From a virus: a stretch of DNA of 36,475 bases. The stretch is taken from positions 1 through 36,475 of the IMG/VR virus record IMGVR_UViG_3300020195_000093; one strand, written 5' to 3'. The stretch's first letter is position 1, and each line of letters begins with the position of its first letter. The notes under the pieces are model-generated. The model saw nothing but the letters and a program-made list of their open reading frames with translations. It searched no databases and had not been told where the DNA came from. Below, in pieces: positions 3,803 through 36,475 of this stretch. A program made the translations under genes and the position numbers.

Positions 3803-3928
3803 ATGACTCGGTCGGCATGGTGGGAACATGCGCAAGCGAACTGGGCTCGGGCAAGCTCCGATGACACCGCTTGGACCCAAAGCTGGTTCGAATCCGGCAC
3901 TGAGTCTTTATGGGTGATGGCAGTATGA
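3803..3928 (+). CDS. Trp-rich miniprotein (41 aa)
   Basis: ATG 3803 follows AAGGGGC at a good distance and directly follows the previous stop. The stop overlaps the next start as ATGA (3925-3928). The product is rich in Trp and Ala (WWEHAQANWARA, then TAWTQSWFES). No family recognised. Confidence 0.5.
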   Translation: MTRSAWWEHAQANWARASSDDTAWTQSWFESGTESLWVMAV

Positions 3929-28118: not shown

Positions 28119-28558
28119 TTCGCAGCCACCTGGCATCTTCGCTTGCAGATATCATTCTGCTTTGTGCACATCTCTTCGTCAATCTTCAATTTCGCATGTG
28201 CGTGTTCTGGCCCACCAACTTGAAGTTTGTTAATGGCTCCGCGGACGCCCCAGCCATAGAACGCATTTTTCGCATCGCTAACTCCAGATTCATAGTCCTG
28301 AATGGCCAGTTCTTCGCACGACAACTGATAGTCTGTGCATAGTTCCTGGCAAGACATTTTCTCTCGCCTGACTGCTAACTCACGTTGTTTACTGGCTTCC
28401 GGGTCACTGGACAGTCGTTGAGGTTCCACCTTGTCCTGCTCATATTTTTCTGCGGCTGCCAGGTCTCTGCGATGTGTATACTTTCGCTTGACTGAAGATG
28501 AATGCGTCGATGCGCAACTAATAAGCAATGCAAACAACGCGATCCATCTGTAGTTCAT
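28115..28558 (-). CDS. Cys-rich lipoprotein (147 aa)
   Basis: Signal sequence MNYRWIALFALLISCAS with lipobox LISC (Cys15). The mature chain is very charged, with six further cysteines arranged SCQELC...SCEEL and MCTKQNDICKRRC, suggesting disulphides in the periplasm or at the cell surface. Coupled on both sides by ATGA. Expressed with membrane proteins outside the lysis region, so a cell-surface role during infection or prophage state, such as superinfection exclusion, is plausible. No family recognised. Confidence 0.6.
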   Translation of the reverse strand: MNYRWIALFALLISCASTHSSSVKRKYTHRRDLAAAEKYEQDKVEPQRLSSDPEASKQRELAVRREKMSCQELCTDYQLSCEELAIQDYESGVSDAKNAFYGWGVRGAINKLQVGGPEHAHAKLKIDEEMCTKQNDICKRRCQVAAK

Positions 28559-28824
28559 TTTACCGGCCCTGTCGTCATCGTGTACTTGTTAATGTTCTTC
28601 CCGCGTGTTCCCGGGACCTGTGCTCGCTCAACTTTAGCACCGCGTTTCTCTAAATTGGAAATCCGCACTCTCACTGTTTGGCTCGAACAATTACACGCCT
28701 TCATTATCTCTTCAATTGTCGCTCCGGCCGACAGCATTTCCTCAAATTGCTTCATGCTGCTCGGATACGACGTGATTATGCGCTTCTGCCTACTTCTTCG
28801 CCGCAGCGGAGTCTGCCTGACCAT
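28555..28824 (-). CDS. Helix-turn-helix DNA-binding protein (89 aa)
   Basis: The core MKQFEEMLSAGATIEEIMKA followed by NCSSQTVRVRISNLEKRGAK reads as a winged or simple HTH, with a basic N-terminal arm (RRRSRQKR) and a C-terminal beta wing (KINKYTMTT-like end). I prefer the start at 28824; an earlier in-frame ATG at 28959 would overlap the upstream gene by 170 bases. Only HTH protein in the leftward operon, so a candidate regulator, perhaps of this operon or of the lysogenic state. Confidence 0.55.
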   Translation of the reverse strand: MVRQTPLRRRSRQKRIITSYPSSMKQFEEMLSAGATIEEIMKACNCSSQTVRVRISNLEKRGAKVERAQVPGTRGKNINKYTMTTGPVK

Positions 28825-29128
28825 GATTGACGCTTGAGGCGACGTCGACGCTGCCGCTCGCTCTGTTGCCAGTGCTATTTCTAGCGCCTTTGAATACTCT
28901 GACCTTGGAATCGAAGTCGGCCATAGCTGCTGCAATATCGAGATTACGATCTTTTCCATTGACGTTCCGGGTCGACGTTCCGCGCCCTATGCGCGTACTC
29001 ATGTCGATGTTGTGCTGTTTAAGCACAAGTACCCAATGGCCTGGAAGCGACATTGTGATGACTTGACCGTTGCGGAACACTAGCGCGACAACGGCAAGGA
29101 GCACGCCAATTATAAGAAGGACTTCCAT
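28790..29128 (-). CDS. Membrane-anchored protein with SPFH-like opening (112 aa)
   Basis: GGAG precedes the start at 29128 by five bases. One N-terminal transmembrane helix (EVLLIIGVLLAVVALVF) is followed by a short beta segment (GQVITMSLPGHWVLVLKQ) and a polar, Asn/Ser/Lys-rich tail. Overlaps the HTH gene by 35 bases. Function unknown; part of the membrane/lipoprotein module. Confidence 0.55.
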   Translation of the reverse strand: MEVLLIIGVLLAVVALVFRNGQVITMSLPGHWVLVLKQHNIDMSTRIGRGTSTRNVNGKDRNLDIAAAMADFDSKVRVFKGARNSTGNRASGSVDVASSVNHGQADSAAAKK

Positions 29129-31705: not shown

Positions 31706-31753
31706 TTCAAGACTATGTAGTGTCAGCGAGTCATTGCAGACAAGGAGTTGCGA

Positions 31754-32026
31754 GTGCGCAATAAGGGCTTTAGAGGTTTGTTTCGGGACGAGACTTACAA
31801 TGGAAAGGCAACAATGAAGACGCCTACGGAGGGAGCGATACTGCCGCCGTTTGAGGGGCCAGCAGTCCCGACGTCCATTCGTGTTCCTAAGAAACTACTG
31901 GAGAGACTGGATGAGATCTCTCGGCGTAGTGAGCTCACTCGTAGTGAGGTAATTGTTCACATTCTAAGGTGGGGTTGTGAACAGGCGGAGTCCCAACTCG
32001 CATCTGACGAAAAACGCGCGAAGTAG
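31754..32026 (+). CDS. Ribbon-helix-helix (CopG/Arc-type) regulator (90 aa)
   Basis: GTG 31754 is chosen because AAGGAG lies six bases upstream (an in-frame TTG at 31748 overlaps that site). After a 40-residue variable N-terminus the C-terminal half is an RHH domain: PTSIRVPKKLLERLDEISRR, then SELTRSEVIVHILRWG. RHH dimers bind short palindromes; the palindrome at 31694-31705 in the divergent control region is the obvious target. Probably an autoregulator of the leftward/rightward early promoters. No CI-type repressor is seen elsewhere. Confidence 0.8.
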   Translation: MRNKGFRGLFRDETYNGKATMKTPTEGAILPPFEGPAVPTSIRVPKKLLERLDEISRRSELTRSEVIVHILRWGCEQAESQLASDEKRAK

Positions 32027-32075
32027 GGTTGTCTCTCTTGGGCGACAGTGTGGCAGTAATCTATTTGTAACGGAT

Positions 32076-32098
32076 TCGTAGGTGACAGTAGCCTACGA
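32076..32098. terminator. Stem-loop downstream of the regulator gene
   Basis: TCGTAGG (32076-32082) and CCTACGA (32092-32098) form a perfect 7-bp stem with a nine-base loop, 50 bases after the regulator stop. No T run follows, so it may be a weak terminator or protein-binding site at the edge of the attP-like region. The stretch 32027-32524 holds no gene I can support. Confidence 0.35.
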
Positions 32099-32232
32099 TT
32101 GTGATCGCTCAATACCCATCAATAGAATGCACTCCGGGCCAATCCGAGGAGAATGATCCTACATGGGTGCTTGCATCGTTACGTCAAACTCAGTCACAAT
32201 TTGTTTCGTCGGGACAACAAAACCCCGATGAC

Positions 32233-32256
32233 CCATCCGCTTCCTGTCCGCTTCCC
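32233..32256. repeat. Direct repeat, left arm of the attP-like region
   Basis: CCATCCGCTTCCTGTCCGCT and one more T, then YCCA: the 24 bases match 32442-32465 with one difference. Internally it has two CCGCTTYC units. With the copy on the other side of the tRNA-like core it has the layout of integrase arm-type sites. Confidence 0.6.
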
Positions 32257-32367
32257 AGGGACGAAAAGAAGCGAAAGGGTACGAAAGCAGATTAACTAAC
32301 ACGAATAACGTGAGTGATTGTAGGGAGATAGAGGCACATATGACAACGTTGAATGATAGCGCTAACA

Positions 32368-32409
32368 CTTCGAATCCGATGGCCGTGGGTTCGAATCCCT
32401 CCGAGCGCA
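32368..32409 (+). other. attP: attP-like core: 3' end of a tRNA-Arg gene
   Basis: 32387-32409 reads GGGTTCGAATCCCTCCGAGC then GCA, the T-arm, 3' acceptor strand (CGAGCGC) and discriminator of a bacterial tRNA-Arg. The bases before it (CTTCGAATCC at 32368-32377) resemble the anticodon loop and stem of the UCG isoacceptor. The 5' acceptor strand and D-arm are absent and the next bases are CAG, not CCA, so this is not a functional tRNA. Phages that integrate into tRNA genes carry just such 3' ends. The 24-bp direct repeats at 32233 and 32442 flank it. No integrase gene is visible. Confidence 0.6.
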
Positions 32410-32441
32410 CAGGCAGTACAAATAAGCGGGCAATTAAGAAT

Positions 32442-32465
32442 CCATCCGCTTCCTGTCCGCTTTCC
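32442..32465. repeat. Direct repeat, right arm of the attP-like region
   Basis: Second copy of the 24-base repeat (23 of 24 identical to 32233-32256), 209 bases downstream, on the other side of the tRNA-like core. Confidence 0.6.
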
Positions 32466-32524
32466 AAATTACTTCCGAGGATCGCGACAGTTCCGATGCC
32501 TACCGCGCTTCGCGGGGGTGTCCG

Positions 32525-32788
32525 ATGAAATCCCGCGCCGACACGATGGACGTACCATGGGCCGACGTTGGCGTGTCCAGTGATGAATCCTCGAACCGCA
32601 TTCTTCCCGAGGACCTGGCGACCGTAATCGATGGCCTGGAGATAGATGCCCTTCGCCGCCGATTGCAAGACAGCGAGTCGGAGAAGGCAGTGCTCATCGG
32701 CACCCTGAAGGACCTCTGGTGCGCCTGGCAGCGCGCTGGACGCGAGCGAGATGAACTGCGCGCTCAGATGGCCTTGGTGGCGACATGA
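32525..32788 (+). CDS. Small helical protein (87 aa)
   Basis: ATG 32525 with GGGGGTG upstream; stop overlaps the next start (ATGA). The C-terminal half is a coiled coil (IDALRRRLQDSESEKAVLIG, then AGRERDELRAQMAL). First gene after the attP-like region. No family recognised. Confidence 0.6.
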   Translation: MKSRADTMDVPWADVGVSSDESSNRILPEDLATVIDGLEIDALRRRLQDSESEKAVLIGTLKDLWCAWQRAGRERDELRAQMALVAT

Positions 32789-33105
32789 GGATTTGTACGC
32801 TTGAAGGCTGCTCTAGTAAACACTACGCGCGGCGGCTCTGCCAGAGGCACTACGACCAACGAAAGGGCAACCAGGATTCAGCCGAAGGGTTGCCGGAACT
32901 TCCTGCCAGAGTGGCTTTTGTCCTGGATGACCTCGCCATGGACCGCCTGGAGCTGTACGCCAAGAGAAAGGGGCGCACTCCGAGCGAAACCGTTGCCGAG
33001 ATTTTATCTCGATTCTTAGTAGGCGTCAGCAGAACGACTGCCGAGCAAGAGCTAGACATCAAAGCGTTCGTTTACCGCCAACAGGAAGAGGCCATTTATG
33101 GATAA
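32785..33105 (+). CDS. Zinc-motif plus ribbon-helix-helix-like protein (106 aa)
   Basis: N-terminus CTLEGCSSKHYARRLCQRHY is a compact C-C-C-H zinc site common near phage HNH-type proteins; a related copy starts the 33425 product. The C-terminal half (VAFVLDDLAMDRLELYAKRK, then GRTPSETVAEILSRFL) looks like an RHH or Arc-type DNA-binding domain. Such a pairing suggests a small regulator. ATGA overlap with the gene upstream. Confidence 0.65.
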   Translation: MRICTLEGCSSKHYARRLCQRHYDQRKGNQDSAEGLPELPARVAFVLDDLAMDRLELYAKRKGRTPSETVAEILSRFLVGVSRTTAEQELDIKAFVYRQQEEAIYG

Positions 33106-33424: not shown

Positions 33425-33721
33425 ATGATTTGCTCAATTGCTAATTGCGATAGGAAGATTTACGGCCGAAAACAGGTCTGCAAGGCCCATTACGCCAGGA
33501 TGCGTAACGGATTCTCTGAGGAGCGGATGCACGCGCCAATTAGAAAAAACGCACCTGAAATTCAGCCACGAATCAAACTGAGCGACAGAGAACGCGTTCG
33601 GGCCGAAACAATAAAAGAGTGCGTCAGCTTTATCGACCATCTTGCTTGGAGCATGAAATCCGAGGACCTGAAGTACGCGGCGGTAATGTTACTAGAACGG
33701 CCGGCCGCAGATGGTCGGTGA
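33425..33721 (+). CDS. Zinc-motif small protein (98 aa)
   Basis: N-terminus CSIANCDRKIYGRKQVCKAH repeats the C-C-C-H pattern of the 32785 product, so the two share a zinc module. The rest is charged and helical (RVRAETIKECVSFIDHLAWS). Overlaps the next gene by 11 bases. No family recognised. Confidence 0.6.
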   Translation: MICSIANCDRKIYGRKQVCKAHYARMRNGFSEERMHAPIRKNAPEIQPRIKLSDRERVRAETIKECVSFIDHLAWSMKSEDLKYAAVMLLERPAADGR

Positions 33722-34126: not shown

Positions 34127-36268
34127 ATGGATATCCAAGACGCAGCACGTCAATGCAGAAGCAATGGTTGGTCTCCTATTCGGTTGCACGGAATTGTTGA
34201 CGGATTATGCACGTGCGATAATTTGGCGTGCGGAAGTCCCGGCAAGCATCCGATTGACGTTGGTTGGCAGAATTATGAGGTGCCAACCTTTGAGGGATGG
34301 TCTTGGAATGTCGGCATAAAGACCGGGAGGGCGTATGGCCTATTCGTCGTGGATGTTGACAGTGAAACGTCATGGCAGGAACTAACTGCCAAATACGGGC
34401 CGGTGGAATGTTATAACGTCGTCAGGACGAGCAGCGGATATCATTACTACTTTTCCTATCCAGAGACGGGAGACTGGAAAAGTGGAGCAAGCGTGCTCGC
34501 TGATGGAGTGGACATTCGCGCGGACGGCGGATACGTGGTTGGGCCGCCAAGTAAACACGCCAGCGGGGCAACGTACGAGTGGGTGAAGCGCGGCGCGTTA
34601 CAGCCGCCTCCTCAATGGGTGCTGGATCTCATTAACCAGAAGAAAAACAAACGAAACAAACGGCAATTACCAGAAGCGAAGCCGGAGATGAAGCCGACCG
34701 TAGACAGGTCGGTAATGATTAGGCGCGGAGTCGAATACATCTCAAGGATGCCGGACTCAGTTGAGGGTTCCAACGGAAGCCTGTCGCTATGGAATGTGGC
34801 GCAGTCGCTAGTCAAAGGCCTCCTATTAACTCGAGAAGAAGCATTCGCGATTATTCAAGAACACTACAACCATGAACCACGATGTAAGCCAGAATGGGAT
34901 GAAGACCTCGTCTGGCACAAGATTGATGAAGTCATTGCTAAGTCGACCTCCGAAGATGGCTATCTGTTGACTGAGTCAAATGGGACAATTGCCGAATCGC
35001 AGGCCAATAAGTCGCGCGCGGATATCATTAGGAAAATGGCGCCGTTCTCTCCTGACTTATGGAGGGAACCTGGCGGAGGAATGCCGCTCGAATGGGACGG
35101 TAGCGTGGCATCTATATGTCAAATCCTGCGGAGCCCAGATACAGGGCGCGTGGCGCTCGGCGGCAGATGGCCACTCCAGTATGACGAAATGGGAATGGTG
35201 CCACTTATTGCTGGTAGCCCGCTCGAAGAAGTAGACATCATCACGACCCGCGAACAGCTCCAGAATCAGTTTAAGGGCTCAAAGGGTAAAACTCTAAACT
35301 ACGCCAAGAACGACGTGTTTGACGCACTCGTTTTAGTGGCAATGGAAAACAAGTTTAATCCGCTAACGGATTATCTTCATTCGCTGTCGTGGGACGGCGT
35401 TAACCGCGTTGATAACGTTGCCAGCATTGCCCTGGGCACCGGCGATGAGTTATCCGCAGTGCTCGTTAAGAAGTTCATGATCGCTTGCGTGGCGCGGGCG
35501 CTGCGACCTGGATGCAAGGTCGACACCTGTCTGATTCTCACTGGTCCACAGGGACAGCTTAAAAGTACGTTCTTCAAAACTTTAGTTGGCGATAAATGGT
35601 TCTCAGACACATTTGTCGATATCAAAAGCAAAGACGCAGTCATGGCCATGCGTAACATCTGGGTCATTGAGTGGGCCGAACTGCAATCCATAATCCGGAG
35701 CGACAGCGAGTCAGTAAAAGCGTTTCTTTCATCAGCTGTCGACAGGATTCGCCCGCCGTACGAACGCAGTGTCAAAGTCATGCCGCGTTATACGGTCGTG
35801 GTTGGCACTACAAACGACGATGAGTTCCTAACTGACTCAACAGGTAATAGACGCATGTGGGTGGTTCGCGCACCTGGCGAGCTAAACAATGCGTGGGTGT
35901 CCGAGAATAGGGATCAACTCTGGGCCGAGGCCATGAGCCTGCACGCCAGAGGGAAGCAGTGGTGGCTGACTGAAGCAGAAGATAACGCTCTGCGTTCAGT
36001 TCATTCCAAATACGAGAGGTCCGACGAGTGGGAATCTCCGTTGAGGGATTGGGCGCTACAGCACGATGAAATTGTCGTCGCCGAATTTTTGGCGCTAGGA
36101 CTCAATAAACCGGTCGGAACCTGGACCACTGCAGATGGTCGCAGGGTAGGTGCCATACTCAGACGCATGGGGTACCAAAAGGTGCGCGTACGTAAGTCTG
36201 AATTAGGTGGTTGCAATAAGACCGTCTGGGAGAAATCCGTCGTGGTACCAAAAGGTGCGCGTACGTAA
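34127..36268 (+). CDS. Primase-polymerase / VirE-type helicase replication protein
   Basis: 713 residues in three parts. Residues 1-170 are a Prim-Pol domain: cysteines with CGSPGKHP (35-42), metal acids VVDVD (D76, D78), GYHYYF (H106), and DIRADGGYVVGPPSKH (129-144). Residues about 195-270 look like a primase C-terminal linker. Residues about 395-590 are a VirE/DUF5906-type ATPase: LSWDGVNRVDN, Walker A GPQGQLKST (473-481), Walker B WVIEW (E515), sensor TTND and the arginine pair in STGNRRMWVV. It would open the origin, unwind DNA and make primers for host polymerase. AGGGCGGG precedes the start. The C-terminus is altered by a 73-bp tandem duplication. Confidence 0.88.
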   Translation: MDIQDAARQCRSNGWSPIRLHGIVDGLCTCDNLACGSPGKHPIDVGWQNYEVPTFEGWSWNVGIKTGRAYGLFVVDVDSETSWQELTAKYGPVECYNVVRTSSGYHYYFSYPETGDWKSGASVLADGVDIRADGGYVVGPPSKHASGATYEWVKRGALQPPPQWVLDLINQKKNKRNKRQLPEAKPEMKPTVDRSVMIRRGVEYISRMPDSVEGSNGSLSLWNVAQSLVKGLLLTREEAFAIIQEHYNHEPRCKPEWDEDLVWHKIDEVIAKSTSEDGYLLTESNGTIAESQANKSRADIIRKMAPFSPDLWREPGGGMPLEWDGSVASICQILRSPDTGRVALGGRWPLQYDEMGMVPLIAGSPLEEVDIITTREQLQNQFKGSKGKTLNYAKNDVFDALVLVAMENKFNPLTDYLHSLSWDGVNRVDNVASIALGTGDELSAVLVKKFMIACVARALRPGCKVDTCLILTGPQGQLKSTFFKTLVGDKWFSDTFVDIKSKDAVMAMRNIWVIEWAELQSIIRSDSESVKAFLSSAVDRIRPPYERSVKVMPRYTVVVGTTNDDEFLTDSTGNRRMWVVRAPGELNNAWVSENRDQLWAEAMSLHARGKQWWLTEAEDNALRSVHSKYERSDEWESPLRDWALQHDEIVVAEFLALGLNKPVGTWTTADGRRVGAILRRMGYQKVRVRKSELGGCNKTVWEKSVVVPKGART
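36171..36219. repeat. 49-bp direct repeat, copy 1 (coding)
   Basis: Identical to 36244-36292, period 73 bp. Copy 1 lies inside the primase-helicase gene and is read in the frame GYQKVRVRKSELGGCN. It shares its first 25 bases, and 6 more upstream, with 97-127. Confidence 0.9.
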
Positions 36269-36292
36269 GTCTGAATTAGGTGGTTGCAATAA
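36244..36292. repeat. 49-bp direct repeat, copy 2 (covers the primase stop codon)
   Basis: Second copy of 36171-36219. It is read in a different frame and supplies the last residues (VPKGART) and the stop codon of the primase-helicase. This suggests that a tandem duplication of about 73 bp extended or rewrote the C-terminus of the protein. Confidence 0.9.
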
Positions 36293-36405: not shown

Positions 36406-36475
36406 CGGCGCCTTCTTCTGGCGTACTTGCTGTAAGATGATGTGGCATGGGGTACCAAAAGGTGCGCGTACGTAA
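36349..36475. repeat. Right copy of exact 127-bp terminal duplication
   Basis: Same 127 bases as 1-127. In the circular molecule this stretch exists once and joins the primase end (36268) to the RusA-like gene (218). Confidence 0.95.

Follow-up and report, generated by a model that had tools for sequence, protein, structure and literature searches.

Why would a phage genome carry what looks like an attachment site (attP) and no integrase to act on it? The question is raised by IMG/VR virus record IMGVR_UViG_3300020195_000093, of which positions 1 to 36,475 (36,475 bp; the window) were analysed. A preliminary description of this DNA had reported the 3' end of a tRNA-Arg gene, flanking direct repeats and no integrase, and this core observation is confirmed by the sequence and by profile searches. 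The explanation favoured here, at a little better than even, is that positions 32233-32466 are the attP of a tyrosine integrase directed at tRNA-Arg(TCG) and that the integrase gene has been lost, most likely recently.

The first and last 127 bases of the record are identical to each other. The figure of 127 resembles the word length of an assembler, as expected where a path closes on itself; circular closure to 36,348 bp is thus probable and the absence of an integrase probably real. The genome size (36.3 kb) is similar to that of distant relatives (35-40 kb), and a search of phage records with the last 8.5 kb of the window returned no close relative. The genome encodes a terminase, a portal and a major head protein, as expected of a tailed phage, and these three genes rule out a phage satellite. 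Replication and recombination genes encode a bifunctional primase-polymerase/VapE-type helicase, a YqaJ exonuclease and an Erf annealing protein; further genes encode a thymidylate synthase, a dATP/dGTP diphosphohydrolase, MazG and a VanY endolysin. Near the end of the primase-helicase gene lie two copies of a 49-bp sequence (36171-36219 and 36244-36292), and about 25 bp from its start recur at the circular junction (about 102-127, equal to 36450-36475). These copies look like a partial duplication of the 3' end of that gene in a repeat-rich non-coding stretch.

The arrangement under study consists of the following features.

31748-32026, plus strand: ribbon-helix-helix (RHH; CopG/Arc type) protein, 92 aa (PF01402, E-value: 6.1e-07)
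32027-32524, no strand: gene-free region of 498 bp holding the whole attP-like arrangement
32233-32257, plus strand: left (P) arm repeat, 25 bp, CCATCCGCTTCCTGTCCGCTTCCCA
32236-32244 and 32247-32255, plus strand: left-arm TCCGCTTCC boxes
32368-32409, plus strand: core, the 3' half of a tRNA-Arg(TCG) from anticodon loop to discriminator base, 42 nt
32384-32410, plus strand: 27-nt run identical to the 3' end of the tRNA-Arg(tcg) at locus L018 of a Deltaproteobacteria MAG
32442-32466, plus strand: right (P') arm repeat, 25 bp, CCATCCGCTTCCTGTCCGCTTTCCA
32445-32453 and 32456-32464, oriented as in the left arm: right-arm boxes
32525-32788, plus strand: orphan gene downstream of the right arm, 87 aa, without family match

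The gap between the RHH gene and the 87-aa orphan is without a convincing gene over all 498 bp, just as had been described. The RHH protein is a candidate regulator, directionality factor or operator binder. Just 3' of its gene, a perfect-looking hairpin (TCGTAGG...CCTACGA, 32076-32098) is a possible operator or processing site. Beyond the orphan, two small proteins (32785-33105 and 33425-33721) resemble HNH-endonuclease PHROGs in about 30 N-terminal residues only, and the former has an additional weak RHH-like match beyond this region.

The core reads, in order, as an anticodon loop (CTTCGAA), 3' anticodon stem (TCCGA), variable loop (TGGCC), T stem (GTGGG), T loop (TTCGAAT), T stem (CCCTC), acceptor strand (CGAGCGC) and discriminator (A), with exact tRNA spacing and every base in place. 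The tRNA-Arg end was previously given as 23 bases (32387-32409); its identity stands, and the block is in fact 42 nt long. ARAGORN calls no tRNA gene here, and the 5' half is missing. Genuine tRNA-Arg(tcg) genes match the core at up to 38 of 42 positions. From 32387 on, 24 nt of the L018 run are also identical in Desulfosporosinus and in a Rhodospirillaceae MAG; this perfect stretch extends from the T stem to one base beyond the discriminator, and all four mismatches to the best tRNA genes lie within or upstream of the 5' T stem. Such placement on the 5' side only fits a block kept for tRNA function with a crossover in the T loop, and the likely crossover is accordingly put at 32390-32396. An Rfam scan returned nothing but an antisense echo of a tRNA arm (E-value: 0.12). 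A second T-arm-like hairpin at 3881-3904 is without an anticodon loop at the right distance and was treated as chance.

The arm repeats are direct and 24/25 identical; they had been described as 24-bp near-identical direct repeats, and are present as such except that their length is 25 bp, with one mismatch. Each arm consists of two 9-bp boxes (TCCGCTTCC) at an 11-bp pitch, and all four boxes are co-oriented. The 21-bp double-box pattern contained in each repeat, TCCGCTTCC-TG-TCCGCTTYC, is found at two places in the window when up to 3 mismatches are allowed, namely the two arms (chance expectation 0.02). When the genome was resampled with a first-order Markov model, exact repeats of even 14 bp within 400 bp were hardly ever obtained. 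No convincing IHF site was seen at the locus, and promoter-like sites number three in all: 32099 (plus strand), 32346 (minus strand) and 31981 (minus strand). The exact 25-mer has 0 matches elsewhere. The sole match to a relaxed arm-box pattern (L028) is a single copy in a coding gene of an unrelated phage and was dismissed as chance.

Bacterial genomes were searched with a pattern in which the anticodon loop and the last 23 bases were fixed. The preliminary description had proposed a tRNA-Arg gene with the same 23-base end as the target, and such tRNA-Arg(tcg) genes were found at 13 loci (11 in Desulfosporosinus, one in a Rhodospirillaceae MAG and one, L018, in Deltaproteobacteria MAG ZH-15may19-289); no prophage there and no identical 42-mer was found. 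All 13 loci read CTTCGAA, which gives a TCG anticodon, and the three checked with ARAGORN are tRNA-Arg(tcg). L018 has the longest unbroken match to the core (27 nt), which includes an unusual T-T opposition in the T stem. At this locus, a tyrosine-integrase gene (PF00589, E-value: 1.5e-18) enters the tRNA-Arg(TCG) from the tRNA 3' side and overlaps it, so a mobile element appears to sit there. Because the overlapped tRNA has the identical 27-nt 3' end, this class of site is a real target. The last codons of the L018 integrase (L018:62-1090) are the antisense of the tRNA-Arg gene, and its C-terminus may therefore change upon integration or excision.

The exact 42-mer has 0 matches in the viral and genome collections, and the core has none within 3 mismatches in the 379 genomes of the phylum of G001. 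Among 29 genomes of the order of G001, the GTGGG form occurs in G001 only. No attL/attR, prophage or attB identical across the whole block was found in the collections searched. The 23-mer has 11 matches in viral contigs, 10 of them in contigs with annotated tRNA genes. The contig of the remaining match, L005, is without a detected tRNA and belongs to a phage that looks unrelated by its ORFs; its tRNA-Arg-like 3' end (CTACGAA...GAGCGCACCA; L005:3983-4005, minus strand) adjoins a portal-like gene and is possibly another attachment site. A portal profile gave no match in Desulfosporosinus genomes and three distant matches in the phylum of G001, and a local tblastn of the window proteins gave a weak portal match in one of these three only. 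The distant portal matches at G009:C465 (L062-L064), G122:C137 and G146:C658, in genomes of the phylum of the L018 MAG, are possible prophages or binned phages.

As had been stated before, no tyrosine or serine recombinase is encoded. Tyrosine (PF00589) and serine (PF00239) recombinase profiles, searched in all six frames, returned nothing at E<=10, whereas the same searches were positive in 14 (PF00589) and 13 (PF00239) of 14 control genomes. Pfam, PHROG and NCBIfam scans of the ORFs likewise named no such recombinase. For a 134-aa protein (28555-28959), all matches are to helix-turn-helix parts; among them is a weak one to a PHROG annotated as 'DNA invertase', which again covers the helix-turn-helix. 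The three matches of a catalytic-motif scan lie in the portal, in a 1004-aa late protein and in an ORF that overlaps the terminase gene, and none of them is credible; the 1004-aa protein has a related counterpart in the wider phage group. No integrase remnant was found beside the site, the sole similarity to the L018 integrase being the tRNA antisense. A phage dependent on XerCD (IMEX) was also considered and rejected: no dif-like site is present at up to 3 mismatches, and half-site matches are at chance level.

A three-row portal profile recovered nine viral contigs as relatives. Two 5.8-kb fragments, L030 and L031, have terminase and portal proteins 32-35% identical to those of the window, and the others are more distant; no relatives emerged when the portal, helicase and head protein were each used as a single query against viral contigs. 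PF00589 was detected in one of 11 records searched from the wider group, most of those without it being fragments or not known to be complete. As the group is mostly without PF00589, the absence may be old rather than recent. The exception is Silvanigrella phage MWH-Nonnen-W8red 1 (CP017838.1), which resembles the present phage in terminase, portal, major head protein and a large late protein (22-26% identity; portal 24.5%) but has its own tyrosine integrase and no detected tRNA-like block of this kind. No comparable block was seen in the seven longer records of the group. The integrase of this distant relative suggests that such phages can be temperate. The wider group thus includes a temperate-looking member, but no close relative locates the former position of an integrase gene. 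CP017838.1 (L013) also contains a large repeated stretch in which the same ORFs occur twice, about 9 kb apart.

Of the parts expected of an attP with its integrase, the genome holds a tRNA 3' core up to the discriminator and repeated arm-type sites on both sides; the cognate integrase gene is missing. The attP reading already put forward in the preliminary description is well supported by the tRNA geometry, the paired arm boxes and the integrase-bearing element at the same tRNA in the MAG. The course of events may be pictured as follows. The core would copy the tRNA 3' half, and the tRNA gene would be whole again after recombination. Strand exchange would take place at the T loop, and only the part downstream of it would have to restore the tRNA. 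The four boxes, as two direct 9-bp pairs, would be arm-type sites bound by the integrase N-terminal domain, with the P pair some 140-150 bp before the T loop and the P' pair some 55-65 bp after it. The integrase would have been lost from a temperate ancestor with attP left intact, and the phage would now integrate only when a co-resident element supplies a matching integrase.

Such a site should decay once its integrase is gone, yet the arms differ at a single position, which points to recent loss or to continued use. Recent loss is ranked likeliest, followed by supply in trans, operator use by the RHH protein and a gap in the assembly. Gene loss and a recombinase from outside had both been suggested in the preliminary description. 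Supply in trans would make the phage a parasite on the integrase of a resident prophage, an integrative element or a co-infecting phage, and the supplier would share both the tRNA-Arg(TCG) target and the arm boxes; this proposal is rather unlikely. The near-identical arms and the intact tRNA 3' block are what selection would predict, and the tRNA-Arg(TCG) of L018 is occupied by an integrase-bearing element, but the searches revealed no element with the same boxes (no exact 25-mer; one relaxed match, in an unrelated phage gene). To our knowledge, no full phage integrates by a borrowed integrase in such a manner, and a search of open-licence papers by exact words returned no complete phage with attP but without int. 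That a full tailed phage carries an attachment site alone by design, and integrates via the integrases of other residents, is slightly more doubtful still. RHH proteins commonly bind tandem repeats, and an RHH gene adjoins the site here; the repeats could thus be its operators and the tRNA end an old, unused remnant, with the next gene (32525) starting 58 bp after the right repeat. This is less probable again, since the spacing of the repeats around the tRNA block is what attP arms typically show, none of the promoter-like sites is placed between a repeat and its supposed target gene, and a dead remnant is unlikely to retain a perfect 24-27 nt 3' end.

The two other alternatives suppose that an integrase gene exists. 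It is improbable that a real gene is missing from the assembled contig: the ends overlap by exactly 127 bp, taken as a closed path, the genome is similar in length to those of distant relatives, and attP and its flanks are uninterrupted. Short repeats do lie at the circular junction (the 49-bp copies at 36171 and 36244 and the partial copy at the ends), and a segment may have been collapsed on such repeats. Least probable is a very divergent integrase among the genes without family match, a suggestion of the preliminary description that the profile, motif and size evidence renders unlikely. Many late genes do lack a family match, with nine late proteins left unassigned, but these sit within the structural block, and the largest non-late proteins of this kind (147, 134 and 122 aa) are too small for the 172-position catalytic domain. 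The blank six-frame searches and the nature of the three motif matches also argue against it.

The favoured explanation, an attP that has outlasted its integrase gene, has a practical side. In metagenomics, a phage without an integrase is routinely called virulent, and an intact attP without int would show that such a call may be wrong or hold only for a time: either the integrase is shed in temperate lineages that keep the site, or some phages borrow integrases. Prevalence could be gauged by looking, in genomes without int, for tRNA 3' halves enclosed by paired repeats.

Known arrangements can be set beside this one. The L018 element uses the same tRNA isoacceptor with an identical 27-nt 3' end; it differs in that the integrase gene itself enters the tRNA and similar arm boxes were not seen. 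In the attP sites described for phages L5 and Giles (PMC3203893), arm-type sites come in pairs that point the same way, and these attP sites resemble the present locus in having a tRNA-type core between direct arm-site pairs; their genomes encode the integrase, whereas the present phage has none. The nearest published case of integrase loss is mycobacteriophage TM4, which is inferred to derive from a temperate parent by loss of about 3.5 kb with int and attP together (PMC3203893). In TM4 the attP would have gone with the integrase, whereas in the present phage it is intact.
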